Below are positions 44,140 to 59,955 of a stretch of 64,000 bases of DNA, piece after piece. The stretch's first letter is position 1; each line of letters starts with the position of its first letter. Made by a program: the position numbers and the translations under genes. Origin of the DNA: an uncultured Allomuricauda sp. (GTDB lineage Bacteria > Bacteroidota > Bacteroidia > Flavobacteriales > Flavobacteriaceae); the NCBI RefSeq assembly GCF_947501165.1, contig NZ_CANMUU010000001.1, positions 558,001 through 622,000 on the forward strand. Reading direction: 5' to 3'. The notes below the pieces were generated by a model that saw only the letters and a list, made by a program, of their open reading frames with translations, did no database searches and was not told the origin of the DNA.

Positions 44140-44730
44140 CTATTCTTCTTCGGATTTAGTGTGAACAAAGTTGGCAACTAGTCTATACGACTCTTCCAAA
44201 GCCTTATCCAAATCGTAGTTCTTTATCACTTTGTCAAATTGGGGAGCTGTAGCCAATTCAACAGAAGCTTTTGCCACCCTCATATTGATTTTGTCCTCAC
44301 TTTCCGTACTTCGCTTTTTAAGCCGAATCTTTAGTTCGTCAACACTTGGAGGTTTAACAAAAACCGCTAGTGTTTCTTTGGGAAACTTTTTCTTGATTCG
44401 CAACCCCCCCACCACATCAATATCAAAAATTACATTTTTCCCTTGGGCCCACAAACGTTCCACTTCACTTTTTAAAGTCCCATAAAAGTTGTCTCTATAA
44501 ACTTCTTCCCACTCCAAAAAATCGTCATTCTTGATATGTTGTTTAAACTCTTTGGTGGATATGAAATAGTAATTGACCCCATCTTTCTCCTCTCCTCTTG
44601 GGGGTCTGGAAGTCGCTGAAACCGAAAAAGCCAAATTGAGTTCGGGCTGTTTTAAAAGGTGTCTTACAATGGTAGTTTTTCCACTGCCTGAAGGAGCAGA
44701 GAAAATAATGAGTTTTCCACCCTTGCTCAT
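44140..44730 (-). CDS. gmk: Guanylate kinase
   Basis: A 196-aa kinase that converts GMP to GDP. The P-loop is SAPSGSGKTT (about residues 10-19), and the GMP-binding segment includes SATSRPPRGEEKDGVNYYF (about 38-56). Length is typical (about 190-210). The start overlaps the end of yicC by four bases (ATGA-type), and nadD follows after 12 bases. It is cytosolic and essential for nucleotide synthesis. Confidence 0.97.
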   Translation of the reverse strand: MSKGGKLIIFSAPSGSGKTTIVRHLLKQPELNLAFSVSATSRPPRGEEKDGVNYYFISTKEFKQHIKNDDFLEWEEVYRDNFYGTLKSEVERLWAQGKNVIFDIDVVGGLRIKKKFPKETLAVFVKPPSVDELKIRLKKRSTESEDKINMRVAKASVELATAPQFDKVIKNYDLDKALEESYRLVANFVHTKSEEE

Positions 44731-45584
44731 AGTACATTAAGCATTTGTTCCTTAATCTTTTCAAGCTCGTCTTTCATTTGAACTACCAATTGCTGCATGG
44801 GAGCATAGTTTGCTTTAGACCCTATGGTATTGATTTCCCTTCCAATTTCTTGCGCTATAAATCCCAATTTTTTTCCATTGGAATCTCCAGAGCCCAGGGT
44901 TGAATCAAAATATTCCAAATGATTGGCCAAGCGTACCTTTTCCTCGGTAATATCGTATTTCTCCAGATAGTAAATGAGCTCTTGTTCAAATCGATTGGCA
45001 TCCACTTCAACTTTAAGCTCGGATAATGCCCTGTTCAAACGCTCTCTAATGGTATTCAAGCGTTCAGGGTCAATCTGTTTTACGTCATTGAGAAGATTAC
45101 CCAAGGTCTTAAGCCGAAGCTTAAAATCAGCTTCCAAAACGCTGCCTTCTTTTTCACGAAAGTTTTTTATTTTTAAAAGTGCTTGCCGCATGGCTTCCTT
45201 AATTGAAGCATATTCCTCTTCATCCAAATCTTCCTTATCACTACGAAGGGTATCGGGCATGCGTAAAGCTAATTCCAGGAGTTTAATGGGTTCTCCTTCA
45301 GTAATGGAACCCAACTGTTTCATATACTTTTTTACTGCACCTTGGTTGATTTCTGAAGTAGTTTCTTCACCTGTGATTTCTACATAAAGCCCAAGGTCTA
45401 CCTTTCCTCTTGAAAGGCTGTCCGCGATCATTTTTCTGAGTTCCAGTTCTTTTTCCCTGTACAATTGAGGAATTCTGGCATTTATGTCCAGATTTTTACT
45501 GTTCAGTGATTTTATCTCTACGGTAATTTTTTTTGAAGGAAGCTGCACCACGTGCTTTCCAAAGCCGGTCATGGATTGAATCAT
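44727..45584 (-). CDS. YicC family endoribonuclease-like protein
   Basis: A 285-aa protein of the YicC/YloC family. The N-terminus MIQSMTGFGKH is diagnostic, followed by EIKSLNSKNLDINARIP (about 24-40). The C-terminal DUF1732 domain ends with NGKKLGFIAQEIGREINTIG (about 237-256), matching the family signature. Family members act as RNA endonucleases in E. coli. It is the first gene of the operon and overlaps gmk by four bases. Confidence 0.94.
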   Translation of the reverse strand: MIQSMTGFGKHVVQLPSKKITVEIKSLNSKNLDINARIPQLYREKELELRKMIADSLSRGKVDLGLYVEITGEETTSEINQGAVKKYMKQLGSITEGEPIKLLELALRMPDTLRSDKEDLDEEEYASIKEAMRQALLKIKNFREKEGSVLEADFKLRLKTLGNLLNDVKQIDPERLNTIRERLNRALSELKVEVDANRFEQELIYYLEKYDITEEKVRLANHLEYFDSTLGSGDSNGKKLGFIAQEIGREINTIGSKANYAPMQQLVVQMKDELEKIKEQMLNVL

Positions 45585-45667
45585 GCGGAGTATTAAATTT
45601 TGGCAAAGGTAACCAAAATAGCCAATGGGCTTTTGGTTAGAATAGATGTATGAAAAAGCGTTATGGG

Positions 45668-46426
45668 CTAGTTCAACTCCCTAACCCAGATATTGCGATA
45701 ACTCACCCTACTATTGTCCTTATGGTCTTGAAGCATTAAAGGGGCTTTCCCATGAGCCTCATACTTGGGCCAACCTATGTACTTAATGGTTCCTTCAATT
45801 TCAAAATGGTCTTGGACCAACACCCCATTGTGGATTACGGTTACTGTGGCCGGTTCATCAATATTACCTCCCCTGGTAAACTTGGGTGCATGAAAAACAA
45901 TATCATAACTGTTCCACTCTCCAGTGGGCACGGATGCCATGGCCAATGGAACGCCTTGTTTGTAAACGGATCCTACCTGCCCATTTACGTAGGTCGGATT
46001 ATCATTATTATCCAAAATTTGAACTTCATAACGTTGCTGTATGAACACTCCACTATTCGCCCTATTCTGTCCTTCTCTTTGTATTTCAGCGGGTGACTTC
46101 CATTCTAAATGTAATTGGAAGCTTCCAAAATTTCGTTTGGTTTGAATATTGCCGGTTTTGTCCTTCACGGTCATACTACCATCCTTATTCAAATTCCATT
46201 TGACCGCTGTACTATCTACGGAGCTTATCCATTCGTCAAAGTTACTCCCATCAAAAAGAACTATGGCATCACTTGGAGGTGCACCATTCTTCCCAGGAAT
46301 TACCTTTGGAGGTACCGGTTCATAAAATTCCGTAGCTTCTGGAGTAGTGGGTTCTTTCTCTTGACCGAACACGAAGCATACGGTCAAAACTAATGCAGCA
46401 AAAAAAGCAAGTACTTGTTTGGTCAT
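45668..46426 (-). CDS. Secreted DUF1080 protein (3-keto-disaccharide hydrolase family)
   Basis: A 252-aa protein with a Sec signal peptide (about residues 1-21, ALVLTVCFVFGQ). A DUF1080 concanavalin-like beta-sandwich follows, starting IVLFDGSNFDEW and including the conserved FQLHLEWKSP, RANSGVFIQQRYEVQILDN, and a closing YRNIWVREL strand. Family members cleave oxidised (3-keto) glycosides. It lies one base after another DUF1080 gene; the two differ considerably in sequence, so they may act on different linkages or anomers. Part of the leftward sugar locus. Confidence 0.9.
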   Translation of the reverse strand: MTKQVLAFFAALVLTVCFVFGQEKEPTTPEATEFYEPVPPKVIPGKNGAPPSDAIVLFDGSNFDEWISSVDSTAVKWNLNKDGSMTVKDKTGNIQTKRNFGSFQLHLEWKSPAEIQREGQNRANSGVFIQQRYEVQILDNNDNPTYVNGQVGSVYKQGVPLAMASVPTGEWNSYDIVFHAPKFTRGGNIDEPATVTVIHNGVLVQDHFEIEGTIKYIGWPKYEAHGKAPLMLQDHKDNSRVSYRNIWVRELN

Positions 46427-46427
46427 C

Positions 46428-47180
46428 TTATAACTCTTTAATCTTTATATTTCTGTACCCAATTACAATGGGCTCTCCATGGTCTTGCAATGCAATTTTT
46501 CCGGTTTTGTATTTTCCAAATGCCTCCCAGGTGGCAAACTTTGAATTGGCCACCATAGCATCCCATGCGTCCCCATTTACCGGAAATTCGGTAATTTTTG
46601 TTCCATTCAATACCACACTTCCTTCATTGGTGTCGTGATTTATGGTAATCAAGTAATGATTCCATTCCCCAACAGGTTTTACTACATCTTGAGTTGGAGA
46701 AACCATATCGTAAAGGGCCCCCGCCTGATGGCTTGTACCGTTTTTTGCATCGGGATGCGATACATTATCCAATACTTGTATTTCAGGTCCTGTGATATAT
46801 GGCTCATTGTACTTTTCATCTTCAACCACGCCCCACATGATACCACTATTGGCTCCACTGTTCACCATCCATTCTATAGAAAGTATAAAGTTGGTGTATT
46901 CCTTATCTGTTACCATATTGAAACGCTCTCCATCTTTGCGGGCTTCGGAAATCTTGTTTAGTAACATAGCTCCATCTTGGAGTGACCATGCTTCCTCTAT
47001 TTCACGCCCAGAGTACACATGCCATCCGTTCCAAGAAGTGCCGTCAAATAAGACGGTCCATTCGGATTCTTCCTCTTTAGAAGCTTCAGTTGTTTCCAGC
47101 TGTTCTGTAGATTGTTCTTTTGGCTTTTCTTTACACGAAAAGGTAAGTGCTAAAACAAGGAGCAAGCTTATTTTCTTCAT
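46428..47180 (-). CDS. DUF1080 lipoprotein (3-keto-disaccharide hydrolase family)
   Basis: A 250-aa lipoprotein: the signal MKKISLLLVLALTFSC ends in Cys16. A Glu/Ser-rich linker precedes the DUF1080 domain, which starts TVLFDGTSWNGW and carries NFILSIEWMVNSGANSGIM and GPEIQVLDN, the family's substrate-cleft signature. It ends with a YRNIKIKEL strand. It is one of two tandem DUF1080 genes and overlaps the upstream TIM-barrel gene by four bases. It probably works in the periplasm or on the cell surface on a 3-keto-glycoside. Confidence 0.9.
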   Translation of the reverse strand: MKKISLLLVLALTFSCKEKPKEQSTEQLETTEASKEEESEWTVLFDGTSWNGWHVYSGREIEEAWSLQDGAMLLNKISEARKDGERFNMVTDKEYTNFILSIEWMVNSGANSGIMWGVVEDEKYNEPYITGPEIQVLDNVSHPDAKNGTSHQAGALYDMVSPTQDVVKPVGEWNHYLITINHDTNEGSVVLNGTKITEFPVNGDAWDAMVANSKFATWEAFGKYKTGKIALQDHGEPIVIGYRNIKIKEL

Positions 47181-48229
47181 AATCCCAGTATTCTTTTAAG
47201 TTTGTCAGTATCCGTATCAGAACCAGCAAAATCATCAAAGGTTTTGGTAGTGGCCTCAATGATATGATCAGCGATAAATTTAGCGCCTTCTCGAGCCCCT
47301 TGTTCTGGACTCTTTATACAACACTCCCATTCCATCACGGCCCAAACATCACAGCCATATTGGGTTAATTTGGAAAAAATGGTCTTGAAGTCTATTTGCC
47401 CATCACCCAAAGAACGATAACGTCCAGCTCTGTCTCCCCAATCGTTATACCCACCAAAGGCTCCTTTTTTGCCCGTAGGGTTGAACTCTGAATCCTTCAC
47501 ATGAAACGACTTAATAAATTCATGGTAGTGGTCTATATAAGTGATGTAGTCCAGTTGCTGAAGAACAAAATGGCTGGGGTCATACAATATATTAACCCGT
47601 TTATGATTGCCTGTGGCTTCCAAAAAACGCTCAAAAGTGTCTCCGTCATGCAAATCCTCACCAGGATGGATTTCATAGCAAACATCCACACCTTCTTCAT
47701 CAAAATGATTTAAAATAGGCATCCAACGCTTGGCCAGTTCCTCAAATCCCATTTCAACAAGTCCAGGAGGTCTTTGAGGCCATGGATGTGCTGTATGCCA
47801 AAGCAATGCTCCAGAAAAAGTTGCATGCGCCTTAATTCCCAATCTTCTACTTGCAGTTGCCGCTTTTTTAACCGTTTCAATGGCCCACTGGGTTCTTTCC
47901 TTCGGTTTTCCCTTTAAATGGTCCGGTGCAAAATTGTCGAACATAATATCGTAAGCAGGATGTACGGCCACCAATTGTCCTTGAAGGTGGGTGGAAAGTT
48001 CTGTAATCTCCAACCCGTAGGAATTGATTTTTCCTTTGAGTTCATCGCAATAGTCCTGACTTTCGGCTGCTTTATCCAAATCGATAAGGAACGATTCCCA
48101 AGTAGGAATCTGAATTCCTTTGTATCCTAAATCAGAAGCCCATTTACAAAGACCATCCAAACTGTTGAATGGTGGCTCACTATCCACAAATTGGGCAAGA
48201 AATACGGCAGGTCCTTTTATTGTTTTCAT
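47177..48229 (-). CDS. Cytoplasmic sugar phosphate isomerase/epimerase-like TIM barrel
   Basis: A 350-aa xylose-isomerase-like TIM-barrel protein without signal peptide. The likely metal ligands are visible: Glu in VCYEIHPGEDL, Asp in LYDPSHFV, His in SFHVKDSEF, and Glu in AVMEWECC. The ATG at 48229 is preferred over the TTG at 48238. Family members isomerise or epimerise sugars, or hydrate 2-hydroxy-3-keto-glycals. It overlaps the DUF1080 lipoprotein by four bases, so the three genes form one transcript. The exact reaction is inference. Confidence 0.88.
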   Translation of the reverse strand: MKTIKGPAVFLAQFVDSEPPFNSLDGLCKWASDLGYKGIQIPTWESFLIDLDKAAESQDYCDELKGKINSYGLEITELSTHLQGQLVAVHPAYDIMFDNFAPDHLKGKPKERTQWAIETVKKAATASRRLGIKAHATFSGALLWHTAHPWPQRPPGLVEMGFEELAKRWMPILNHFDEEGVDVCYEIHPGEDLHDGDTFERFLEATGNHKRVNILYDPSHFVLQQLDYITYIDHYHEFIKSFHVKDSEFNPTGKKGAFGGYNDWGDRAGRYRSLGDGQIDFKTIFSKLTQYGCDVWAVMEWECCIKSPEQGAREGAKFIADHIIEATTKTFDDFAGSDTDTDKLKRILGL

Positions 48230-48459
48230 TTTGGTCAAATTAAGATTCAGAGATTTCTTGGATTCTCTGTTGAGGAAATTAGATGGTTCAACAATTCTTT
48301 GTCAAGAAAGATAAATATAGGTATTCAATTAGAATTAAAACAGCCCTTTAGTGGATGAAATTTTGTTTCCCCATTTTCTTTGTTAAAACTTCAATTGTTA
48401 TCTTAGGCCCTTTAACAGAAAGAACCCAAATTTTATCTGCCTTCAAAATTCTAACTCTA

Positions 48460-48924
48460 ATGGAAAATGCTTCTGCCCAAGATTTGTGGACCGACTTTTT
48501 AAATTCAAAGCCAAACCTTGTTTGCGAAGGTGAGCCTAAAGTCATTCACTTTTGCGACAATGAAAAAGATGCCAATGTCTGTTCTGAATTGGTCAACAAG
48601 GAAATAAAACGAGCCACTTCACATTCCCTTTTGGGTTTACAATTGCGAAAAGAAACACTTCCCAAAATAGGAGATTTGGCCATTGTCACGGATTGGAACG
48701 GGAAAGCCAAGACCATTATCCGTACCACTGGGGTTAAACTTATTCCCTATTTTGCGATTCGGGAAGAGCATGCAAGAATGGAAGGTGAAGGGGACAAGAG
48801 CTTGGACTATTGGAAGAAAGTACACTGGGACTATTACACCCGAGAGCTTTCCGAATTTAAACGACTACCTAGAGAAAGTATGATTGTGGTTTTTGAACAG
48901 TTTGAAAAACTGCATTCAAAATAA
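48460..48924 (+). CDS. ASCH domain protein
   Basis: A 154-aa protein of the ASCH superfamily, a beta-barrel fold related to PUA RNA-binding domains. Diagnostic segments are GDLAIVTDWNGKAKTIIRTT (about 70-89) and EGEGDKSLDYWKKVHWDYY (about 107-125). The ATG at 48460 is used because family members start near MENASAQDLWTDF; the 35 extra upstream residues are unlikely. Related proteins are amidohydrolases acting on modified nucleosides. It sits on the plus strand inside the otherwise leftward sugar locus and looks unrelated to it. Confidence 0.85.
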   Translation: MENASAQDLWTDFLNSKPNLVCEGEPKVIHFCDNEKDANVCSELVNKEIKRATSHSLLGLQLRKETLPKIGDLAIVTDWNGKAKTIIRTTGVKLIPYFAIREEHARMEGEGDKSLDYWKKVHWDYYTRELSEFKRLPRESMIVVFEQFEKLHSK

Positions 48925-48974
48925 AAGGCCGAATAAATTGGACCTTTAGACTTTCAATTCTTTAAAATTCGTCT

Positions 48975-50111
48975 TTAATCTAGATTTACCCAGATGTTCC
49001 CCTGTTTGTTAGATTCCACTGTGCTTTCTATAAAATTAAGGCCTCGTACCCCGTCTAACATGGTTGGAAATTCACCATCATTATAGGCTTCTCCTCTAAT
49101 AGCTTTAGCTACTCCCAAATAAATATTGGCCATGGCGTCAAATATTCCTTCCGGGTGTCCAGGAGGCAGTTTGGTGCCATCCAAAGATAATTCGGAATTA
49201 TAGGCATGCCCAGGTTTGTATACCTGCAAAGGCTCTGTATCGCTTAATTTGTAGAGATAATTTGGGTTTTCTTGCTCCCATCTAAAGGCTGCTTTTTCAC
49301 CGTAAATCGCAATTGCCAATCCATTTTCTTCTCCAGTGGCTACTTGACTACTTCGAATCACACCTTTGACATGTTTGTCCATCCGTATCAAAACCGTGCC
49401 ATCCACATCCATCTGATTGTCATCATACAGATAATTGAAATCGCACAAAAGAGATTTGACCTGTAGGCCTGTAGTAAACTCAATCATATTAAAGGCATGA
49501 ACGCCAATATCACCCATGCATGAACTGATTCCAGCTTTTTTGGGGTCTAATCGCCAAACCGTGGAGCGTTTTTCTTTGTCATGGATAATCCCATTGATCC
49601 ATCCTTGGTAATATCTAGCATCCACTTTATGGATTTTCCCTAACTCTCCTGCTTTTATCATTTCCCGCATTTGGCGAACCATTGGATAGCCAGTGTAGGT
49701 ATGAGTCACTGCAAAAACCTTTTTAGCTTTGGCCAAGGTTTCTTGTAGAATCTTCGCCTCTTCATAATTAGTCGTCATTGGCTTTTCACAAATGACATGA
49801 AAACCATTTTCCAATAGTTTTTTTGCCATGGGAAAGTGGAGAAAGTTAGGCGTAAGTACGGAGCAAACCTGAATACGTTCTTCTTCCGGAAGTTTTAGCT
49901 CCGCTTCTATCAGCGCGTCCAAATCGGAATAAACACGATTGGTAGGGATATCAATTTCATTTGCAAAAGCTATACTTTCTTCATGATTGGCATTGAATAC
50001 TCCCCCTGTTATTTCGTAATTATCGTTGATGTAAGCCGCTACCCGGTGTAGCACACCAATTAGGGAATCACCTCCACCTCCAAGTATTCCAAGCTTAATT
50101 TTCTTAGGCAT
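48975..50111 (-). CDS. Gfo/Idh/MocA family sugar dehydrogenase
   Basis: A 378-aa NAD(P)-dependent oxidoreductase. The Rossmann motif is LGILGGGGDSLIG (about residues 7-19). The catalytic Lys is Lys110 in the CEKP motif, and Asp201 and His205 of DIGVHAF give the family's second catalytic site. No export signal is present, so it acts in the cytoplasm. In the presumed pathway it would interconvert a 3-keto sugar and the sugar. It lies five bases before the MFS permease gene in the same transcript direction. Confidence 0.93.
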   Translation of the reverse strand: MPKKIKLGILGGGGDSLIGVLHRVAAYINDNYEITGGVFNANHEESIAFANEIDIPTNRVYSDLDALIEAELKLPEEERIQVCSVLTPNFLHFPMAKKLLENGFHVICEKPMTTNYEEAKILQETLAKAKKVFAVTHTYTGYPMVRQMREMIKAGELGKIHKVDARYYQGWINGIIHDKEKRSTVWRLDPKKAGISSCMGDIGVHAFNMIEFTTGLQVKSLLCDFNYLYDDNQMDVDGTVLIRMDKHVKGVIRSSQVATGEENGLAIAIYGEKAAFRWEQENPNYLYKLSDTEPLQVYKPGHAYNSELSLDGTKLPPGHPEGIFDAMANIYLGVAKAIRGEAYNDGEFPTMLDGVRGLNFIESTVESNKQGNIWVNLD

Positions 50112-50116
50112 ATATT

Positions 50117-51343
50117 TTATTCTTTATATTCTATTTTTTCGTTTTTGAACAGTAGCATGAAAAGTATCAAAACCACAAAAGCAAAAATAGCCGGGAAAGT
50201 CCAAATATTGGTCCATTCATGTACATTTTCAGAAACCAAGTAAGAATCTGTTATTTTTCCAGCGACCCAGAAACCAATCAGCATACCCACACCATAAGTG
50301 GCCAAGGTAATTAAGCCTTGCGCCGCACTCTTGTACTTTTCCCCTGCTTTTGAATCCGTATAAATCTGACCGGACACAAAAAAGAAATCATAGCAGATAC
50401 CATGCAATGCTATTCCCAAAATCAACATAAAGGCCAACTCTCCAGCATCTCCAAAAGCAAAAAGCAGATATCTAATGGTCCATGCCAACATTCCTGCAAG
50501 AATGGTCATTTTGAAGCCAAACTTTTTGAAAAAGAAAGGCAACAACAACATAAAAAGAACTTCAGAAATCTGTCCAATCGTCATTTTCCCAGCTGGATTG
50601 GAAACTCCTATTTCGCCTAAAAACTGACCTGCATGCTGGTAGTAAAATGCCAAAGGAATACAAATCAACACAGAGGCAATGAAAAATATAAGAAAGTTCC
50701 TGTTCTTAAGGAGCTTTAGTGCTTCTAATCCGAGAATATCAGAAATCGTTACTTTTTCATCCTTAGAAGTCTTAGGTGGTGTTTTAGGCAAAGTAAAACT
50801 AAAAACTCCCAATAAGGCTGATGCGCCAGCAACCATTAGAAAGGTGTTTTTCAACAATCCTTCTTGCACTCCAGCTTCGCTATCCCATCCAAAAAAACTA
50901 ATGGCGAGTCCTGCAACAATCCAGCCTATAGTTCCAAAAACACGGACAAAGGCAAACTCCTTTGAAGGGTCTTTCATTTGGTTAAAAGCCACAGAGTTCA
51001 CCAAAGCCAAGGTTGGCATATAGGCAATCATATAGCCGTAGACATATGGGATAAAAACAGAAATATCTGAAGCATTGGCTATTTGATACATTAAAAATGC
51101 CCCTATCAAATGAAGTATTCCCAATACTTTTTCAGCGTTAAAATAGCGATCCGCTATGAGCCCAATAATGAACGGAGCAATTATGGCTCCCCAAGATTGA
51201 CTAGAGTAAGCACTTGCTATTTCAGCCCCACTAGCATCCAAGGTGTTTGGCAAATAAATGCCCATGGTGACAAACCACCCTCCCCAAATGAAAAACTCAA
51301 GAAACATCATAAAGGACAGCTGAAATTTTGCTATTGAATTCAT
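50117..51343 (-). CDS. MFS permease of the nucleoside:H+ symporter family
   Basis: A 408-aa major-facilitator transporter with twelve membrane helices. The N-terminus MNSIAKFQLSFMMFLEFFIWGGWFVTMG and SSQSWGAIIAPFIIGLIADRYF match the NupG/XapB-type nucleoside symporter family. Members found beside DUF1080 and Gfo/Idh/MocA genes are probably sugar rather than nucleoside carriers. It is 24 bases downstream of DinB and five bases upstream of the dehydrogenase, so it likely imports the oxidised sugar for reduction. Confidence 0.9.
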   Translation of the reverse strand: MNSIAKFQLSFMMFLEFFIWGGWFVTMGIYLPNTLDASGAEIASAYSSQSWGAIIAPFIIGLIADRYFNAEKVLGILHLIGAFLMYQIANASDISVFIPYVYGYMIAYMPTLALVNSVAFNQMKDPSKEFAFVRVFGTIGWIVAGLAISFFGWDSEAGVQEGLLKNTFLMVAGASALLGVFSFTLPKTPPKTSKDEKVTISDILGLEALKLLKNRNFLIFFIASVLICIPLAFYYQHAGQFLGEIGVSNPAGKMTIGQISEVLFMLLLPFFFKKFGFKMTILAGMLAWTIRYLLFAFGDAGELAFMLILGIALHGICYDFFFVSGQIYTDSKAGEKYKSAAQGLITLATYGVGMLIGFWVAGKITDSYLVSENVHEWTNIWTFPAIFAFVVLILFMLLFKNEKIEYKE

Positions 51344-51367
51344 ACAAATATTGCGTTAGTTGATTTG

Positions 51368-51811
51368 TTATCTCTTGTAAAAAATGTAGTCCAAGGGTAT
51401 TGGCTCTATTTTGGAAGCCCTCATATCCATTACAATTTGTCCCCGGTGGTGCGTAGCGTGATTTACTATGTGAAAAAGGATATCTTTTAGATCGTTGGAA
51501 TAGGCCCTGCCTTCAGTACTGGTATAATCAATTCGCTTATTAAAATCTTCAGCATTGGTGATAATTTCAAACGAAGAGCGCTGATTGTCATAATGAATAT
51601 CATTCCAATCTTCTACGGCATGTTTTTGCCAAACTTCAAATTCGTGGGTCTTCCCCAGGATTCTTTGATTCCATATATGATGGGAATTTAAAATATGACT
51701 GAACATCTTAATGCTTTTTTTGGGCACCTTGTCCATTTGGCCAAATTGCTCCATCAATTGCTTATTGCAATAGAAATTATAATCAAAAAGCTGTTGTAAA
51801 AATCCCTTCAT
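51368..51811 (-). CDS. DinB family protein
   Basis: A 147-aa four-helix-bundle protein. The conserved His residues that bind metal are visible: HILNSHHIWNQRILGK (about residues 41-56) and FHIVNHATHHRGQI (about 112-125). DinB/YfiT proteins are often thiol transferases or damage-inducible proteins. It sits between the exported TIM barrel and the MFS permease in the same direction, with gaps of 16 and 24 bases. A role in sugar metabolism is not obvious; it may use a thiol cofactor. Confidence 0.85.
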   Translation of the reverse strand: MKGFLQQLFDYNFYCNKQLMEQFGQMDKVPKKSIKMFSHILNSHHIWNQRILGKTHEFEVWQKHAVEDWNDIHYDNQRSSFEIITNAEDFNKRIDYTSTEGRAYSNDLKDILFHIVNHATHHRGQIVMDMRASKIEPIPLDYIFYKR

Positions 51812-51827
51812 ACTTTTTTGGAATGTT

Positions 51828-52823
51828 TCACGCGGATTGTTCCATTACTTTTAAGAGTAGCTCTTTAGTTGCCAAGATACCTTCCTCTTCACCCAAAACA
51901 TCTCCTTCATATTCCACACCAATATACCCTGCATACTCCGCTTCATTGACAATTTTCATCATACGGGCATAATCTGTATGGGTTTCATTACCTTGTTCAT
52001 CAAAATCATGAGATTTTGCACTAACAGCTTTGGCGTAGGGCATTAGCTCTTGTATTCCTTTGTATCTATCATATTCTTCAATACAAGGTGAGGAAAAATA
52101 AGAGCCATCTTCACGTTTTACACAGAAATTTCCAAAATCTGGTAAAGTACCGCAATTGGATAGGCCTACTTGTTTTATGACATCCACCAACATCTGCGCA
52201 TTTGATGAAAAACCACCGTGGTTCTCCACTATTACATTAATGTTTTTGGTGTTGGCGTAATTTGATAATTGGGTGAGCCCATCAACCGAAGCTTGAGTCC
52301 ATTCTTCAGCTACCTTGCTGCCCATCAAGTTAACCCTAACGGAATGACATCCTAGTTCCGCGGCAGCATCAACCCATTTAAAGTGGTTTTGGACAGCCTC
52401 TTTTCTTTCACCGGCATCCGCTGCAGAAAGATCTCCTTCATGATCGATCATAATAATCAAGTTCTCCATACCGTGCTTTTCACTTTCAGCTTTTGATCTT
52501 TGAACAAAGTGCTGCATCGCTTCTTTTGAAAAACCTTTGATATTGGGCTCGTTTTCGTATAATTGATTTACATACTCCAATCCTGTAAAACCCCATTCTT
52601 TTGCTTTTTCAGCAAATAAATAAGGGTCCATACCTTCTTCCTTTATCATTCTATGGATAGACCACTGGGCCAAGGATAGTTTTAGCACCGGTGAAGCATT
52701 ATCCACTTCTTCTATCTCCACAACTTCTTCCTTTTTTTGTTTAGGTTTACAGGAATGTAGCCCAAATACGGATATGGCAACTCCCGCCTGAAGGGTCCCC
52801 TGAACAAAATTTCTTCTCTTCAT
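51828..52823 (-). CDS. Exported TIM-barrel sugar isomerase/epimerase-like lipoprotein
   Basis: A 331-aa xylose-isomerase-like TIM-barrel protein. The N-terminus MKRRNFVQG is twin-arginine-like, and Cys25 in FGLHSC fits a lipobox, so it is probably a Tat-exported lipoprotein. An acidic linker (VVEIEEVDN) follows. Possible metal ligands are Glu in VIVENHGG, Asp in LPDFGNF, His in AKSHDF and Glu in IGVEYEG. It opens the leftward transcript, divergent from the GMC oxidoreductase. It could act in the periplasm on the products of DUF1080 cleavage; this is inference. Confidence 0.88.
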   Translation of the reverse strand: MKRRNFVQGTLQAGVAISVFGLHSCKPKQKKEEVVEIEEVDNASPVLKLSLAQWSIHRMIKEEGMDPYLFAEKAKEWGFTGLEYVNQLYENEPNIKGFSKEAMQHFVQRSKAESEKHGMENLIIMIDHEGDLSAADAGERKEAVQNHFKWVDAAAELGCHSVRVNLMGSKVAEEWTQASVDGLTQLSNYANTKNINVIVENHGGFSSNAQMLVDVIKQVGLSNCGTLPDFGNFCVKREDGSYFSSPCIEEYDRYKGIQELMPYAKAVSAKSHDFDEQGNETHTDYARMMKIVNEAEYAGYIGVEYEGDVLGEEEGILATKELLLKVMEQSA

Positions 52824-52960
52824 ATAGTTAGATTATTGAATCTTTAAAGGAATCTAAAAACTACAACGTTATAGTATCAAATTCTCAATAAACGCAGGGT
52901 TTAAATGTAGAAAATTAATTTAATAATTAATACATTTATGAACTAAACAATTCAGAATAC

Positions 52961-54679
52961 ATGAGTAAGTTTTATTACAATGAAGAACAGGAATCCTATG
53001 ATGCCATTGTCGTAGGAACTGGGATCAGTGGAGGCTGGGCAGCAAAAGAACTCTGCGAAAATGGATTGAAAACCTTGGTATTGGAGCGTGGAAGAATGGT
53101 GAAGCATAGGGAAGATTATCCTACAGCGAACATGGACCCTTGGGATTTTCCAAATGCCGGGGAAGCCACCCAAGAAGATCTTGCAAAGCAGGAAAAACAA
53201 GCAAGAACGGGATATACTGTAAAGAAAGCTTCTCAACATTGGTTTGTAAACGATTTAGAGCATCCCTATAACGAGGTTAAGCGCTTCGATTGGATGCGGG
53301 GGTATCATGTAGGTGGACGTTCCATTATGTGGGGGCGTCATAGTTACCGCTGGAGTGAAATGGATTTTGAAGCAAATGGCAAAGAAGGGATTGCTGTGGA
53401 CTGGCCAGTTCGTTATAAAGACATAGCTCCATGGTATGATAAAGTGGAATCATACATTGGGGTATCTGGGGAATTGCTTGGACTTCCTCAACTTCCTGAT
53501 GGCAAATTTGAACCCATGATGGAGCTGAATTGTGTTGAAGACTTTGTTCGCGGAAAAGTTGCGGAGCATTTTGATGGCCGGGTAATCACGGCAGGAAGGG
53601 TTGCTCATATAAATAGTGACAAACGTTTTGAAGGAGATGGCAGAGTGCGTTGTCAGTTTAGAAACCGTTGTGTGCGTGGATGTCCTTTTGGAGCTTATTT
53701 CAGTAGTGTTTCTTCTACATTGCCCGCTGCAGAAAGAACCGGCAATATGACCTTACGACCTGATTCCATTGTGCACGAAATTATATATGATGCCGATAGT
53801 AAAAAAGCAACTGGAGTCAAAGTAATAGACCGACTAACCAAAGAAGAATTTGAATTTAAGGCCAAGGTGATTTTCTTATGTGCCTCGGCAGTGGCATCCA
53901 CTTCCATACTCATGCAATCCAAATCTGACCGTTTTCCAGATGGTTTAGGAAATGATAGTGGTGAATTGGGACACAACCTTATGGATCATCACTTTAAAGC
54001 CGGTGCTGAAGGAAAAATGGATGGCTTTGATGACAAATACTACAAAGGAAGAAAACCAAATGGCATCTATATTCCTAGGTTCCGAAATTTGGGTGGGTCT
54101 AGTGATATGAAGAATTTTACCAGAGGATACGGTTACCAAGGAGGAGCTGGAAGAGGCAATTATGAAGATCTGGTCGCCGAAGCTTCATTTGGAAAAGAAC
54201 TGAAGGAAGGCATTCTAAAGCCAGGAGGCTGGACCATGAACATGTTGGGCTTTGGAGAAATTCTTCCCTATCATGAGAATAAGATGACCCTCGATTATGA
54301 GAAAAAAGACCAATGGGGCCTACCTACGGTAACCTTCGATGCAGAAATCAAAGAAAATGAGCTTGAAATGCGAAAGGATATGCAGGAGCAAGCTGCCGCC
54401 ATGTTGGAGAAATCGGGGGCAAGAGATATAGAGACCTATGATGAAACTTATGCTCTAGGGCTAGGTATCCATGAAATGGGTACAGCGCGAATGGGTCGCA
54501 ATCCGAAAACCTCGGTACTGAATGGATTTAATCAAGTGCATGCTTGTAAAAATGTATATGTTACGGATGGATCATTTATGACTTCGGCCAGCTGTGTCAA
54601 CCCATCTCTGACCTATATGGCGTTTACCGCAAGAGCAGCAGATCATGCTGTAAAAGAACTTAAAAAAGGAAATATCTGA
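52961..54679 (+). CDS. GMC family FAD-dependent oxidoreductase (sugar dehydrogenase type)
   Basis: A 572-aa flavoprotein. The FAD Rossmann motif is VVGTGISGGW (Gly19, Gly21, Gly24), the second family signature is GGRSIMWGRHSYRW (about 104-117), and a Cys-rich segment RFRNRCVRGCPFG appears near residue 230. His504 (GIHEMGTARMG) and Asn547 (SCVNPSLTYMA) form the catalytic pair. No signal peptide is present, so export would depend on its partner. The next gene, a gluconate 2-dehydrogenase subunit-3-like protein, overlaps by one base. Together they match FAD-linked glucoside 3-dehydrogenases, though the cytochrome c subunit is not in the window. Confidence 0.92.
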   Translation: MSKFYYNEEQESYDAIVVGTGISGGWAAKELCENGLKTLVLERGRMVKHREDYPTANMDPWDFPNAGEATQEDLAKQEKQARTGYTVKKASQHWFVNDLEHPYNEVKRFDWMRGYHVGGRSIMWGRHSYRWSEMDFEANGKEGIAVDWPVRYKDIAPWYDKVESYIGVSGELLGLPQLPDGKFEPMMELNCVEDFVRGKVAEHFDGRVITAGRVAHINSDKRFEGDGRVRCQFRNRCVRGCPFGAYFSSVSSTLPAAERTGNMTLRPDSIVHEIIYDADSKKATGVKVIDRLTKEEFEFKAKVIFLCASAVASTSILMQSKSDRFPDGLGNDSGELGHNLMDHHFKAGAEGKMDGFDDKYYKGRKPNGIYIPRFRNLGGSSDMKNFTRGYGYQGGAGRGNYEDLVAEASFGKELKEGILKPGGWTMNMLGFGEILPYHENKMTLDYEKKDQWGLPTVTFDAEIKENELEMRKDMQEQAAAMLEKSGARDIETYDETYALGLGIHEMGTARMGRNPKTSVLNGFNQVHACKNVYVTDGSFMTSASCVNPSLTYMAFTARAADHAVKELKKGNI

Positions 54680-55329
54680 TGGAAAGAAGAACAGCACTCA
54701 AAAATATGGGAATGGCTTTCGGGTATACCGTGGCTGCTCCCACATTATTAGGATTGGTCCAAAGTTGTAACTCCAAGAAAGTTCTAGACTGGACCCCAGA
54801 TTTTTTAACCAAGGATGAAGGTGTTGCCGTTCATACAATGGTTGATATCATTCTCCCTAAAACAGATACGCCTTCTGCCACTGATGTAAATGTTCATGTA
54901 TTTATAGATCAGTTTGCCAAAGATGTGCTCCCCCAAGAACACAAGGATTTTTTAAAGTTAGGAATGGACAAATTTTTTGGCAAAGTACTGACTGACGCTG
55001 AAAAGGAAACTTTGCCCGAATTAAACGAAGAGGATTTCATTGCAGCTTTGAAAACATATCTAAAAAAGCGTACCAAAGAGGTTGAGGAAGCTCACAATAA
55101 GGCTATAGGGGAATATTTTATGGCCATTGAACAAAATGGCAGTGCCGTATTGGACGATGAGATCGCTCGATATATGTTTGCCAATTCGATTAGAGACATC
55201 TCTGTCTGGTCCTATAAAAGCTCTGAATATGTTGGCGAAGAGGTATTGGCTTATCTGCCCATTCCAGGTCAATATGTGCCCTGTGATACTGCAGAAGCCC
55301 TCACTCAGGGAAAAGCATGGTCCTTATAA
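54679..55329 (+). CDS. Gluconate 2-dehydrogenase subunit 3 family Tat protein
   Basis: A 216-aa small subunit. The N-terminus MERRTALKNMG with AAPTLLGLVQSC is a twin-arginine signal, possibly with lipid attachment at the Cys. The mature part (TKDEGVAVHTMVDIILPKTDTPSA, about 42-65) is the Gluconate_2-dh3 signature, followed by helices ending in YLPIPGQYVPCD. Such subunits carry the folded GMC subunit through the Tat system. It shares one base with the GMC gene (TGATG) and is followed after 21 bases by a terminator. Confidence 0.92.
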   Translation: MERRTALKNMGMAFGYTVAAPTLLGLVQSCNSKKVLDWTPDFLTKDEGVAVHTMVDIILPKTDTPSATDVNVHVFIDQFAKDVLPQEHKDFLKLGMDKFFGKVLTDAEKETLPELNEEDFIAALKTYLKKRTKEVEEAHNKAIGEYFMAIEQNGSAVLDDEIARYMFANSIRDISVWSYKSSEYVGEEVLAYLPIPGQYVPCDTAEALTQGKAWSL

Positions 55330-55350
55330 TAGACTAATATTTTTAAGACA

Positions 55351-55378
55351 AAAAAGTCCTTCTAACGAAGGACTTTTT
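55351..55378 (+). terminator. Terminator of the GMC/subunit-3 transcript
   Basis: AAAAAGTCCTTC (55351-55362), loop TAAC, GAAGGACTTTTT (55367-55378), a perfect 12-base stem including the T-run. Confidence 0.93.
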
Positions 55379-55390
55379 TATGCACAAATA

Positions 55391-55440
55391 AAAACACCTC
55401 GGAAGTTTGTCTCTTGGGGTAAAACTTTCCGAGGCGTTTT
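55391..55440 (-). terminator. Terminator of the nrdA transcript
   Basis: AAAACACCTCGGAA (55391-55404) pairs with TTCCGAGGCGTTTT (55427-55440), with one A/C mismatch and a long loop. It lies just after the nrdA stop on the minus strand, with T-rich sequence beyond. Confidence 0.75.
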
Positions 55441-55481
55441 AGTTAATAAACACTATCACATACTGATAAGTTCAGTATAAA

Positions 55482-57959
55482 CTATGAACCGCACATTAAG
55501 CAATCGTCATCAGCTTGGCCTTCTTTGGCACGTGCAATCATTTCTTTCATTTCTTCAGGTGTCATTGGTTGAATATCTACTTCCTGTTGACTTACAGGAG
55601 TAGTCTCCACCTGAATGGTCTTAGCTCCTTTCGTAGTAGCTGCAATCACTTCTGCTTCCGCTGCCACACTAACCGGAACTTCTTTCTTTTTCGTATTATC
55701 CAAAGTGAATTTAATAGCATCTACAGCTGCTTTGGTTCTCAGGTAATACATTCCCGTCTTCAAGCCACTCTTCCAAGCATAAAAGTGCATGGAAGTCAGT
55801 TTGGCATAGTTGGCATTCTCCATGAACAAGTTCAAAGACTGACTCTGGTCAATGAAATAGCCACGTTGACGACTCATATCTATTATATCTTTCATACTGA
55901 GTTCCCAAACCGTTTGATACAGTTCCTTAATTTCCTCGGGAATCACATCAATATGTTGAATGGAACCGTTGGCACGCATCAGTTCTTGTTTCAGATTCTC
56001 GTTCCATAGACCCAGTTTAACCAAGTCTTCCAAAAGATGCTTGTTTACCACAATAAATTCGCCGGATAGTACTCTTCGCGTGTAAATGTTGGAAGTATAC
56101 GGTTCAAAGCATTCGTTGTTACCCAAAATCTGAGAAGTGGAAGCGGTAGGCATTGGCGCAACCAACAATGAATTTCTCACTCCGTTTTTAAGAACATCTT
56201 TTCTGAGTTTGCCCCAGTCCCATCTTCCAGAAAGTTCTTCATCTTTGATACCCCAAAGATTGTGCTGGAATTCTCCTTTGGATATAGGTGAACCTTCATA
56301 ACTGGAATATGGTCCTTCTTCTTTGGCTTGTTCCATGGAAGCAGTGACGGCTGCAAAGTAAAGAGTCTCAAAAATATCTTGATTCAATTGTTTTGCCTCA
56401 TCACTAGTAAAGGGCAATCTGAGCATTATGAATGCGTCTGCCAGTCCTTGAACTCCCAAACCAATTGGTCTATGCCTCATATTGGAGTTTTCGGCTTCTT
56501 TGACCGGATAATAGTTGCGGTCAATAACCCTGTTCAAGTTTTTAGTAACTCTTTTTGTAACCTTGAAAAGCTCTTTATGGTCGAACTTGCCATTTTTCAC
56601 GAACATGGGCAAAGCGATGGATGCCAAGTTACATACTGCTACCTCATCGGGAGAGGTATATTCCAAAATCTCTGTACATAAGTTGGAAGAGCGAATGGTT
56701 CCCAGATTTTTCTGGTTGCTCTTTCTGTTGGCAGCATCCTTATACAACATATAAGGTGTTCCTGTTTCTATTTGAGATTCGAGGATTTTCTCCCACAATT
56801 CTCTTGCCTTAATGGTCTTTCTTCCTTTTCCTTCCGACTCGTACTTAAGATACAATGCATCAAAATCCTCGCTATGTGTGTTAAAAAGGTCTGGGCACTC
56901 ATTTGGACACATTAGGGTCCATTCTGCATCTGCCTCTACTCTTTTCATAAACAAATCTGGAATCCACATGGCGTAGAATAAGTCCCGCGCCCTCATTTCT
57001 TCCTTTCCGTGATTTTTCTTCAAGTCGAGAAAGTCAAAAATATCGGCATGCCATGGTTCCACATAAATAGCGAAACTTCCTTTTCTTTTTCCTCCACCTT
57101 GGTCAACGTAACGTGCTGTATCATTAAATACCCGTAACATAGGCACTATTCCGTTGGAAGTTCCGTTTGTTCCAGCTATATAAGATCCTGTGGCTCTAAT
57201 ATTATGGATAGATAGCCCAATACCTCCAGCAGATTGGGAAATCTTTGCCGTTTGCTTCAACGTATCGTAAATACCATCAATGCTATCGTCCTTCATGGTC
57301 AATAGAAAGCAGGAAGACATCTGTGGTTTTGGAGTACCTGAATTAAACAACGTAGGAGTAGCGTGGGTAAAGTACTTCTTCGACATAAGCTCATAGGTCT
57401 CTATGGCTGCATCCAAGTCGTTTAAATGAATTCCCACAGCGACACGCATGAGCATATGTTGAGGGCGCTCTGCAATCTTACCATTAAGTTTTAGCAGATA
57501 TGAGCGTTCCAATGTTTTAAAACCGAAGTAATCGTAGCCAAAATCACGGTTATAAATTATAGTGGAATCCAAGGTCTCTGCATTCTCAGAAATTACTTTG
57601 TACACCTCATCTGACAGAAGAGGTGCTTCTTTGCCTGTTCGTGGATTTACATATTCGTATAAATCCTTCATGGTTTCTGAGAAAGATTTTTTGGTATTCT
57701 TATGTAGGTTGGAAACGGAAATACGGGCCGCCAACTTTGCATAATCAGGATGCGTTGTGGTCATTGTTGCTGCTATTTCAGCAGCCAAATTGTCCAATTC
57801 CGACGTGGTCACGCCATCATACAATCCTTCAATGACCCTCATGGCAACCTTTACAGGGTCCACTAGGCCATTGAGACCATAACAAAGTTTTCTAACTCGT
57901 GCCGTGATCTTGTCGAACATCATCGGCTCTTTTCTTCCATCTCTTTTTACTACATACAT
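55482..57959 (-). CDS. nrdA: Ribonucleoside-diphosphate reductase, large subunit (class I)
   Basis: An 825-aa catalytic subunit that reduces ribonucleotides to deoxyribonucleotides. An ATP-cone allosteric domain begins [20 protein letters not shown] (about 1-90). The NLCTE motif with catalytic Cys and Glu follows in the middle ([11 protein letters not shown]), with the redox Cys of VCNLAS. Two C-terminal cysteines (CLMC, four residues from the end) pass electrons from thioredoxin. Its partner nrdB lies upstream on the same strand, separated by a terminator-like hairpin and conserved motifs. Length is slightly above E. coli NrdA (761). Confidence 0.97.
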
Positions 57960-58013
57960 GCGCTACGATTATTTTAATTATGATACTTACTTGGTTCTAC
58001 CAAACAGCGTTTT

Positions 58014-58044
58014 GTGTTAAATTTTTAACACTTGAGGTCAAAGT
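58014..58044. promoter_or_regulatory. Candidate regulatory site upstream of nrdA
   Basis: A perfect palindrome GTGTTAAATTTTTAACAC (58014-58031) is followed by GAGGTCAAAGT (58034-58044). The 11-mer GAGGTCAAAGT and the 10-mer TTTTTAACAC also occur upstream of nrdB (59183-59202). Sharing between the two nrd genes suggests a common regulator. It does not match the NrdR box that I know. Confidence 0.45.
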
Positions 58045-58047
58045 CAT

Positions 58048-58073
58048 AAAAACCCTCGATGGGCGGTCGAGGG
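58048..58073 (-). terminator. Hairpin between nrdB and nrdA
   Basis: CCCTCGA (58053-58059) and TCGAGGG (58067-58073) pair around a 7-base loop. On the minus strand, an uninterrupted T-run follows (58048-58052). It would end or attenuate transcripts from nrdB before nrdA. Confidence 0.7.
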
Positions 58074-58090
58074 CTTTCTTGGTGGGTTAT

Positions 58091-59077
58091 TTAAAAATCA
58101 GCATCAAAGCTTATCTTCTGTGAGTCGGCATCCTTTTCTTTATTAAGAACACCTGCTTTTTGATATTCTGAAACTCTTTTTTCAAAGAAATTAGTTTTTC
58201 CTTGAAGAGAAATCATGTCCATAAAATCAAACGGATTAGTGGCGTTATAGACTTTTTCGCACTGCAATTCCACTAAAAGTCTGTCTGTTACGAATTCTAA
58301 GTATTGCGTCATCAATTTCGAGTTCATACCAATAAGACTAACTGGAAGAGATTCCGTTATGAATTCTCTTTCAATGTTAAGGGCATCAACAATAATTGAA
58401 GTGATGCGCTCTTTAGGAACTTTGTTCACCAAATGATTGTTGTGCAAATGCACAGCATAATCGCAATGCATTCCTTCATCTCTTGAAATCAATTCGTTGG
58501 AAAAGGTCAATCCTGGCATTAGACCTCTCTTCTTCAACCAGAAAATAGAGCAAAAGGCTCCAGAAAAGAAAATTCCTTCGACAGCTGCAAAAGCAATTAG
58601 GCGTTCTGCAAAGCTTGGAGAATCAATCCATTTCAAAGCCCAGTCTGCTTTCTTTTTAATGGCCGGGAAATTTTCAATGGCTTTGAACAAAATACCTTTC
58701 TCTTTTTCATCCTTTACATAAGTGTCTATCAGAAGAGAATATGTTTCAGAATGAATATTTTCCATCATTATCTGAAAACCGTAGAAAAACTTGGCTTCTG
58801 AATACTGCACTTCGTTTACAAAGTTTTCGGCCAGGTTTTCATTTACGATACCATCTGAAGCAGCGAAAAAGGCCAAGATATGTTTGATGAAGTAACGTTC
58901 GTCTTCATTCAGTTTGTTATTCCAATCCGTTAAATCCTGATGAAGGTCAATCTCCTCAGCAGTCCAAAAACAAGCCTCGCACTTTTTGTACCAATCCCAT
59001 AAATCATGGTGTTGTATTGGAAAAATAACAAATCGGTCTTCATTTTCTTGCAAAATAGGTTCTACTGCTGCTGACAT
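58091..59077 (-). CDS. nrdB: Ribonucleoside-diphosphate reductase, small subunit (class I)
   Basis: A 328-aa radical-bearing subunit. The start at 59077 ([16 protein letters not shown]) is used; the longer frame adds 20 residues with no family support. Metal and radical residues are Asp44, Glu106 and His109 with the radical Tyr113 ([12 protein letters not shown]), and the second metal set lies near [22 protein letters not shown] and SRDEGMHCD. The segment [13 protein letters not shown] is shared with eukaryotic-type R2 proteins. The C-terminus has the usual acidic end (FDADF) that docks NrdA. It precedes nrdA on the minus strand. Confidence 0.97.
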
Positions 59078-59292
59078 AATTTCATAATAAGAATTAGTAA
59101 TACTGGACGAAAATTTCCCTGTGAATAGGGCTAACAAAGATTCAAAAATGTGATCAGATTGTAAAGTTTGTTTTAGAAAATAGAGGTCAAAGTTTTTAAC
59201 ACAACTTGTTGAAATCTAGGTTCGCAAGTGATGTTTGTTGGCTTTGCGAAAACCAAAAGCAGTGTACAATTTTTTTAGCACACTTGAACAAT

Positions 59293-59336
59293 AAAAAAAG
59301 ACCAAAGAGTATAAATAGCTATACCGCTTTGGTCTT
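59293..59336 (-). terminator. Minus-strand terminator with no obvious gene upstream
   Basis: AAGACCAAAG (59298-59307) pairs with CTTTGGTCTT (59327-59336), with an inner pair GTATA/TATAC. A run of seven A on the plus strand (59293-59299) gives a T-run on the minus strand. Nothing large is encoded upstream on that strand before 59979, so it may end a small transcript. Confidence 0.72.
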
Positions 59337-59578
59337 ACTTACTTATGAAAATTGCTTGCTTTGTTTACTTATATTATTGGATTACCAAAGTGTACGGCCA
59401 TTCTCAATCCTTCAAGCCTTCTCCATATAGTTTTTAGGTAGTTCCCCCAAAACCTAAAACCAAATTCGAAAATTGAAAAAATCAAGAAATATTTTTTCAA
59501 GCAGTTCCACTTATGAGGTTGGTTGCTCTGGCCGTACGTTTTCTGGTAATGTCAATGATCTTATTTACAATAACAGTT

Positions 59579-59698
59579 CTATTCCTTAACCGCCAATTCC
59601 TTCCATTCCGATTCAATTTTTAACTCCTGCTGTTCCGCTACGGATGCAACAATTAATGCCACAACTAAAATTAAAAAGAGAATTATACACTTTCTCAT
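59579..59698 (-). CDS. Possible 39-aa secreted peptide (below usual size limits)
   Basis: ATG at 59698, TAG at 59581. It encodes a hydrophobic signal-like start (MRKCIILFLILVVALIVASV) followed by a polar tail rich in Glu and Lys (ELKIESEWKELAVKE). A minus-strand terminator lies about 240 bases downstream, which supports a transcript. A frame in another phase continues beyond the stop with IVNKIIDITRKRTARA, so a frameshifted relic is also possible. A plus-strand frame of 36 codons overlaps (59513-59623). Confidence 0.32.
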   Translation of the reverse strand: MRKCIILFLILVVALIVASVAEQQELKIESEWKELAVKE

Positions 59699-59922
59699 AT
59701 CTGTTTGGTGAGGTTACCAAAGCTAAAGTAGAGATACAATTTAAAGTTCCATCAATGGTATGTATGGACGACATGGATTCTTGTATAAATGGCTATGTTT
59801 AGCAATAATAGAATTGAAAACTGAAAAAGAAAACCTTCTAAATTGAAGGAAAAAACCTATGGCTTCCCATTATGCGGCGTTTTGTTCCATTTATAAGCAT
59901 AAAATGTCCATTAGCACATAAT

Positions 59923-59955
59923 TTTAAAATGGTTAAACAGAATATTATACATTTG
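59923..59955 (+). promoter_or_regulatory. Promoter of the LytTR response regulator gene
   Basis: TTTA (59923-59926), a 21-base spacer, then TACATTTG (59948-59955), an exact -7 match. Transcription would begin near 59962, leaving about 17 bases of leader. Confidence 0.5.

Follow-up and report, generated by a model that had tools for sequence, protein, structure and literature searches.

A conserved flavobacterial gene cluster that probably degrades glycosides without hydrolysis, with predicted steps on both sides of the inner membrane and an uncharacterised exported barrel

How might a bacterium take glycosides apart with a locus that encodes no glycoside hydrolase? We addressed this question for a divergent gene cluster at positions 45668-55329 of a 64,000-nucleotide stretch of DNA from an uncultured Allomuricauda sp. 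(Flavobacteriaceae; contig NZ_CANMUU010000001.1, positions 558,001 to 622,000; hereafter the window). A sequence-only reading of the cluster had proposed that a glycoside is oxidised at C3, cleaved by elimination, hydrated, imported and reduced. All genes named in that reading are present as intact open reading frames (ORFs) with Pfam matches above curated cut-offs (Table 1): two DUF1080 proteins (DUFa and DUFb), an exported (TTIM) and a cytoplasmic (HYD) TIM barrel, a Gfo/Idh/MocA oxidoreductase (Gfo), a major facilitator superfamily (MFS) permease, and a GMC dehydrogenase with a subunit 3 (SUB3) that bears a twin-arginine translocation (Tat) signal. The absence of glycoside hydrolases and of SusC/SusD was likewise confirmed by Pfam for the ten locus proteins. 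A DinB-family gene and an opposite-strand ASCH-domain gene had been overlooked. We consider it probable that the locus encodes non-hydrolytic glycoside degradation by oxidation, elimination, hydration and reduction, split across the inner membrane. The outline of the earlier scheme is retained, owing to the similarity of HYD to a known hydratase and the co-occurrence of GMC/SUB3 with it, whereas the proposed order of steps is not. Signal peptides and lipoboxes were assigned by visual inspection rather than with a predictor.

The strongest single evidence is the homology of HYD, which turns an argument from family names into a specific pathway step. HYD is 65% identical over 350 amino acids to PDB entry 8ro4, "2-hydroxy-3-keto-glucal hydratase" (E = 1e-163), its metal site reads ExH, D, H, E, and four motifs were conserved in 106, 116, 117 and 116 of 117 relatives, counted among those with at least 60% identity and at least 330 amino acids. 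There is thus a strong case from homology that HYD is a glycal hydratase giving a 3-keto-sugar. All 34 HYD copies in the 33 family genomes that encode it start at or near M-x-TIKGP with no apparent signal peptide, and because HYD looks cytoplasmic, its hydration step more likely follows import. The hydration step of the earlier scheme is therefore kept, but the sequence "hydrated, imported" is not, as a signal-less HYD must act after import.

Is this enzyme regularly accompanied by the rest of the gene set? Across 80 family genomes, each from a different genus, HYD was found in 33, GMC (at least 46% identity) in 36, TTIM in 35 and an OGE-like barrel in 17. HYD and GMC occurred together in 32 genomes, with HYD only in 1, GMC only in 4 and neither in 43 (Fisher p = 8e-17, uncorrected for relatedness). 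The corresponding counts for HYD and TTIM were 33, 0, 2 and 45, with TTIM on a different contig from HYD in 3 of the 33 HYD genomes (G004, G035 and G064). Far from co-occurring rarely, then, the two operons travel together in relatives, GMC being present in 32 of 33 and TTIM in 33 of 33 HYD genomes. Joining the GMC/SUB3 half to the remaining genes, as the sequence-only reading had done, is upheld both by this co-occurrence and by seven Aquimarina loci (L139, L140, L145, L147, L151, L153 and L157) in which GMC-SUB3-TTIM-MFS-GFO-HYD run in one direction, with DUF1080 next in six of the seven.

Gene order is conserved as well. The usual arrangement is DUF1080-HYD-GFO-MFS-TTIM followed by the divergent GMC-SUB3, often at the same chromosomal place, with YicC-GMK-NAD genes on one side and ribonucleotide reductase on the other. 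Among 36 fetched family loci, several of which are truncated at contig ends or encode a different MFS type (c2), HYD was present in 33, TTIM in 30, GMC in 31 and all six core genes in 19. Of 80 loci taken from named records, 57 likewise carried all six, on which two methods agreed; the 80 loci (Allomuricauda, Eudoraea, Maribacter, Zobellia, Aquimarina, Gelidibacter and others) are the best 80 of 587 confirmed, were found with TTIM as query and include 16 shorter than 18 kb. Comparison with relatives, a check suggested beforehand, thus supports the locus as a unit: because the same genes recur in conserved order, the set reflects more than chance. As TTIM copies look exported and HYD copies carry no signal, the split between compartments is typical of the family (33/33 HYD genomes, localisation by eye) rather than the "unusual division of labour" it had been called. 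The relatives do not discriminate among glycoside substrates, apart from possible hints in single loci, namely a GH2 beta-galactosidase within locus L053 (9543-12755) and a GH29 alpha-L-fucosidase beside locus L050 (15137-16462).

The closest PDB structures to the GMC protein are fructose dehydrogenase (FDH) and FAD glucose dehydrogenase (FAD-GDH). Its CX5CX3C motif aligns with the CX5CX3C cysteines of FDH and was kept in 159/159 GMC relatives, none of which has an RR in its first 14 residues (0/159; counts cover relatives with at least 45% identity and more than 540 amino acids). In FAD-GDH, Cys212, 218 and 222, at the same spacing, bind a 3Fe-4S cluster, and the catalytic subunit depends for its export on a small hitchhiker subunit with a twin-arginine signal (PMC6719666). 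SUB3 is probably such a hitchhiker for GMC; R3 and R4 of its RR motif are invariant in 37 aligned sequences, and Foldseek gave no match at E <= 0.001 for its model (pLDDT, the predicted local distance difference test, 83.1). Because the GMC relatives have no RR, the SUB3 RR is invariant and FAD-GDH sets a hitchhiker precedent, the GMC/SUB3 complex is most likely a periplasmic dehydrogenase.

Other GMC genes occur around this module. The window's genome has a second one (L204:7438-9875, ~30% identity), with a gene for a small RR-signal protein after it and efflux-like genes (by eye) alongside; neither this pair nor a third DUF1080 gene of the same genome (L203) clusters with other pathway genes. 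The weakest two PF06439 matches are L004 and L005. A different second GMC (~65% identity), which the window does not have, adjoins ASCH and diverges from HYD in relatives L046, L047, L049, L053, L056 and many of L082-L161. TTIM and GMC are separated by an AraC-type gene (cluster c6; one member was scanned with Pfam) in L066, L069, L070, L072, L074, L075 and L076, and in L068 such a gene is next to GMC only; the window has none between TTIM and GMC.

Cleavage of the oxidised glycoside could fall to the DUF1080 proteins, which have been linked to 3-keto-disaccharide cleavage; those characterised are a 3-ketotrehalose hydrolase and an endo-xanthanase/lichenase, and in C. crescentus, where mutant phenotypes are reported, as well as in Indibacter and elsewhere, DUF1080 genes adjoin GMC dehydrogenases of the LacABC type (PMC9007349). 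The only PDB match of DUFa at E <= 0.001 is 4qhz (E = 5.9e-73), and DUFb has 14 PDB relatives, including 4jqt and, at E about 4e-28, 8rr2 and 8tda; the molecule name of 8rr2 is 3-keto-disaccharide hydrolase domain-containing protein. A DUF1080 gene was present in 65-66 of the 80 named-record loci. B. thetaiotaomicron has a 3-keto-O-glycoside lyase that we take to be the DUF1080 protein BT2157. Elimination and hydration activities are separable in the B. thetaiotaomicron lyase (PMC13273386), so hydration may also be within the reach of DUF1080-type lyases.

The nearest structure to TTIM, the exported barrel, is 4ovx (51% identity), the entry title of which gives no function. In a Foldseek search with the TTIM model (pLDDT 87.7), 12 C-glycoside deglycosidase chains ranked directly behind 4ovx. 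VIA-align Z scores were 41.5 for 4ovx, 29 for the isomerase Art22, 26.6 for a tagatose-epimerase-like protein and at most 26.5 for eliminase chains, with epimerases at 24-27, and 8ro4 was not among the 50 VIA-align matches listed, which excludes nothing. The modelled fold alone does not choose among isomerase, epimerase and eliminase.

In the deglycosidase AgCGD2, the metal site comprises Glu147, Asp179, His269, Lys271 and Glu305, with His149 as the catalytic residue (PMC8563793). The TTIM equivalents, assigned from spacing and from sequence alignments with deglycosidase and HYD/OGE-like barrels rather than from superposed coordinates, are Glu200, Asp229, Ser268, Lys270, Glu304 and His202, and all six are invariant in 52/52 aligned homologues. 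The site reads ExH, D, Ser, E: four of the five ligand positions are retained, as is the His of catalytic type, and the fifth is a fixed Ser. This combination suggests that TTIM is related to the eliminase/hydratase/epimerase group, with a changed metal site, and is not a member of the CGE family. Export signals were read in 31 copies including that of the window (L065, with TTIM truncated at a contig end, was set aside): RR occurs near the N terminus in 13/30 copies, most others look Sec-lipoprotein-like, and only one or two lack a lipobox-like Cys. Among the 52 homologues, conservation of Cys25 is 90% or higher. In 11/36 family loci (L046-L050, L054, L057, L063, L064, L066 and L072), another TIM barrel that looks exported (cluster c0; PF01261 in the one member scanned) lies downstream of SUB3, directly after it in 9; the window has no c0 gene.

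Taken as a pathway, the GMC protein, exported by Tat on the RR-bearing SUB3, would act in the periplasm, oxidising a terminal sugar residue at C3, and its electrons would pass via the 3Fe-4S cluster to a respiratory acceptor that is presumably encoded elsewhere. Both exported DUF1080 proteins, TTIM, or all three would cleave the 3-keto-glycoside by beta-elimination, HYD would hydrate the glycal to a 3-keto-sugar in the cytoplasm, and Gfo would reduce this to an ordinary sugar. Homology and gene context make Gfo a likely 3-keto-sugar reductase; its nearest structure is 3v5n, all NCBIfam sugar-dehydrogenase models score far below cut-off, and a Gfo gene also adjoins HYD in named Alphaproteobacteria. 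The MFS permease scores 382.4 bits against TIGR00889, under the cut-off of 446.1. That TTIM is itself an eliminase we regard as doubtful. We advance only as a tentative proposal that it is a further 3-keto-glycoside beta-eliminase, an envelope lipoprotein with Ser for the metal His, which in marine Flavobacteriaceae takes the place of the OGE-like enzyme and passes the reactive 2-hydroxy-3-keto-glycal to the NupG-like permease for cytoplasmic hydration.

Does the arrangement extend beyond the family? Among 247 phylum genomes, TTIM was found in 56, HYD in 49 and both in 30, and the pairing of HYD with TTIM is looser across the phylum than within the family. TTIM-like genes outside the family (L162-L173) are often away from HYD, and the TTIM barrel family probably has other uses too. 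Single-run clusters were found on plasmids of Pseudoalteromonas donghaensis (Gfo-HYD-MFS-DUF1080-GMC-SUB3-TIM) and Hymenobacter volaticus (GMC-SUB3-nucleoside permease-Gfo-HYD-cytochrome c-TIM-TIM-DUF1080, beside SusC/D and GH65) and in Ketogulonicigenium (HYD-Gfo-GMC-SUB3-TIM). The P. donghaensis GMC is just 31% identical to that of the window, and its MFS is nearer the c2 type. No SUB3 gene was found in the Rhizobium and Sphingobium regions examined. One barrel in each of the Pseudoalteromonas, Hymenobacter and Ketogulonicigenium clusters has an N-terminal signal (by eye) and is OGE-like (His-Asn-His, Asp, His-x-Lys, Glu), a label that refers to a motif built from residues named in PMC10628242 and not to comparison with the AtOGE sequence.

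TTIM may take the slot of the exported OGE-like barrel found in some other clades. The window's cluster contains no OGE-like ORF, and its genome gave no match at E <= 1e-25 to the L191 OGE-like protein, used as a stand-in query for AtOGE; at E 1e-25, no OGE-like barrel was found in 17/33 family HYD genomes, a group to which the window's genome belongs. Genome-wide replacement of OGE by TTIM was rejected, as the contrast among the 49 phylum HYD genomes was not significant (TTIM and OGE-like in 26, TTIM only in 4, OGE-like only in 19, neither in 0; Fisher p = 0.15). At the level of loci, an OGE-like gene was present in 2/98 HYD loci with TTIM compared to 6/20 without it (p = 2.6e-4), the other 14 of the 20 carrying neither. 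This contrast agrees with replacement, but in a biased sample, since 67 of the 98 loci came from the TTIM-query search, many are close relatives and some are short, with relatedness uncorrected.

Several observations weigh against oxidative elimination as the function of the locus. The canonical metal-ligand His (His269 of AgCGD2) is replaced by Ser268 in all 52 TTIM homologues, the TTIM fold matches not only eliminases but also isomerases and ketose 3-epimerases, and TTIM occurs without HYD in 26/56 phylum genomes that have it. Within the family, four genomes have GMC without HYD and one has HYD without GMC. None of the ten DUF1080 genes of a Pedobacter strain had a lactose phenotype, for which the authors allow redundancy (PMC9007349). 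The MFS permease belongs to a family named for nucleosides, and the NCBIfam models for levoglucosan, BT_2158 and BT_2159 dehydrogenases all score Gfo far below cut-off (33.8 bits against an equivalog cut-off of 750 for BT_2158 and 19.1 against 650 for BT_2159). No CxxCH protein was found among the ORFs of at least 60 amino acids examined at 44501-60000 of the window; the Hymenobacter cluster includes a c-type cytochrome.

Some of these points would suit other functions. If DUF1080 proteins alone cleaved and hydrated in the periplasm, TTIM could broaden the range of sugars as an epimerase or isomerase of 3-keto-sugars, with HYD scavenging glycal that leaks in. The Ser in place of His and the fit of Art22 and the epimerases, as good as or better than that of eliminases, are compatible with this, as is the separable hydration of the B. 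thetaiotaomicron lyase (PMC13273386). However, TTIM accompanies HYD in every family HYD genome, keeps Glu200, His202, Asp229, Lys270 and Glu304 and has the 12 eliminase chains right behind 4ovx in Foldseek, and loci L050 and L071 are without a window-like DUF1080 gene, which may be elsewhere in those genomes; we see this arrangement as conceivable and rather unlikely. An inositol-like route, in which GMC oxidises a polyol, the barrels act as epimerase and dehydratase and Gfo is an inositol-type dehydrogenase, would also draw on the TTIM fold and on weak model matches (HYD to IolE, 60.9 bits against a cut-off of 290; Gfo to IolG, 47.8 against 355; TTIM to IolO, 23.5 against 300). It is improbable given that HYD is much nearer 8ro4 than IolE (3cny, E = 2.1e-9) and that most named-record loci carry a DUF1080 gene, a family whose studied members act on 3-ketotrehalose and xanthan/lichenan (PMC9007349). 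Finally, the opposite strands in the window and most relatives, along with the four GMC genomes without HYD, might suggest two functionally unrelated operons that are neighbours by chance. The association of HYD with GMC across 80 genera and the unidirectional arrangements in Aquimarina, Pseudoalteromonas and Hymenobacter strongly disfavour chance, leaving it a very slim prospect. Oxidative, non-hydrolytic degradation thus remains our preferred reading of the locus.

In the window, the minus strand reads, in order of transcription, TTIM, DinB, MFS, Gfo, a 0.7-kb gap, HYD and both DUF1080 genes. Spacing is operon-like: the DUF1080 genes lie 1 bp apart, DUF1080 and HYD overlap by 4 bp, Gfo and MFS lie 5 bp apart, and GMC and SUB3 overlap by 1 bp. 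Because the plus-strand ASCH gene sits between Gfo and HYD, the minus side likely forms two transcription units. The ASCH ORF opens at 48355, and the ATG given in Table 1 yields 154 amino acids, matching relatives of 154-156 amino acids. DinB and ASCH genes were found by tblastn in 46/80 and 44/80 related loci, respectively. No Bacteroidetes-type promoter pattern was found in the divergent region, with 6 matches over the window compared to a shuffle mean of 4.9.

Table 1 Features of the divergent locus, in window coordinates
Feature	Coordinates	Strand	Evidence
DUFa, DUF1080/PF06439	45668..46426	-	134.6 bits vs cut-off 26.8; Sec signal peptide by eye
DUFb, DUF1080/PF06439 lipoprotein	46428..47180	-	147.5 bits vs cut-off 26.8; LTFSC lipobox by eye
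HYD, cytoplasmic PF01261 TIM barrel, 2-hydroxy-3-keto-glucal hydratase type	47177..48229	-	identity to 8ro4; no signal peptide by eye
ASCH-domain protein	48460..48924	+	Pfam 69.1 bits; opposite strand inside cluster
Gfo/Idh/MocA oxidoreductase (Gfo)	48975..50111	-	Pfam match; nearest structure 3v5n
MFS permease, nucleoside/H+ symporter family PF03825	50117..51343	-	Pfam 388 bits
DinB-family protein	51368..51811	-	Pfam 53.8 bits
TTIM, exported PF01261 TIM barrel	51828..52823	-	twin-arginine and lipobox Cys25
Intergenic region between divergent units, 137 bp	52824..52960	.	
GMC flavoprotein dehydrogenase without own signal peptide	52961..54679	+	CX5CX3C at residues 231-241
Subunit 3 (SUB3), Gluconate_2-dh3/PF13618, twin-arginine signal	54679..55329	+	Pfam 75.6 bits

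How does the locus compare with known systems? The GlycDH-OGE-HYD-Gfo operon of Agrobacterium tumefaciens has four steps shown or proposed, that of HYD on preliminary evidence (Bitter et al. 2023, PMC10628242). The locus shares with it a HYD-type barrel and a putative Gfo reductase, has in GMC, by family membership, a candidate for the flavin-dependent glycoside dehydrogenase, and adds a Tat SUB3 for GMC, DUF1080 proteins and an MFS permease. The A. tumefaciens operon has an OGE-type barrel (HxH, D, H, E), whereas the locus instead has an exported barrel with an altered metal site. Because the OGE-type barrel is missing from the cluster and the stand-in query had no match in the genome, the locus works like the four-enzyme pathway without being a member of it.

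The third component of LacABC is an electron-transfer subunit. No such component was found at the locus, where the ORFs examined include no CxxCH protein. Price et al. 2022 (PMC9007349) describe LacABC as a membrane-bound, periplasm-facing dehydrogenase with DUF1080 nearby in Caulobacter and also in Bacteroidota; the likeness to the locus lies in a GMC protein with a Gluconate_2-dh3-type partner beside DUF1080, by family and not by comparison of LacABC sequences. That paper does not settle what becomes of the 3-keto sugar, a path that HYD, Gfo and MFS of the locus could complete, making the locus a candidate answer. With the direct-electron-transfer complexes FDH and FAD-GDH, GMC shares the 3Fe-4S cysteines of the catalytic subunit, from which the cluster is predicted. 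The beta subunit of the C-glycoside deglycosidases (CGE/CGD) is a DUF6379 protein. No separate beta-sandwich subunit of this kind was found by Pfam among the ten locus proteins. The deglycosidases DgpBC/CarBC (Mori et al. 2021, PMC8563793) have the closest folds to TTIM after 4ovx by Foldseek and share its Glu-x-His, Asp, Lys and Glu positions, at an identity of about 15-22%.

In B. thetaiotaomicron, a pathway encoded by BT2156-BT2160, reportedly the subject of work by Nasseri and by Kastner in 2024, is said to follow the same oxidative, non-hydrolytic logic with a DUF1080 3-keto-glycoside lyase, C3 oxidation reportedly being carried out by Gfo/Idh/MocA enzymes of the BT_2158/BT_2159 families. 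The locus differs in its Gfo, far below the models for those families, and in the presence of a GMC enzyme; those two studies may already cover part of the picture given here. In a search of open-access PMC papers for this gene combination, none matched three of the six terms. The pathway type is already known; the locus represents a well-conserved variant of it, divided between two compartments and including an exported barrel yet to be characterised. It unites two halves that have been described separately, GMC/LacABC with DUF1080 in Bacteroidota and Caulobacter and OGE-HYD-Gfo in Rhizobiales. Its novel part is TTIM, which stands where the clusters of some other clades carry a barrel with a complete eliminase-type metal site and which, conserved but altered at that site, is a clear target for a specific activity test.

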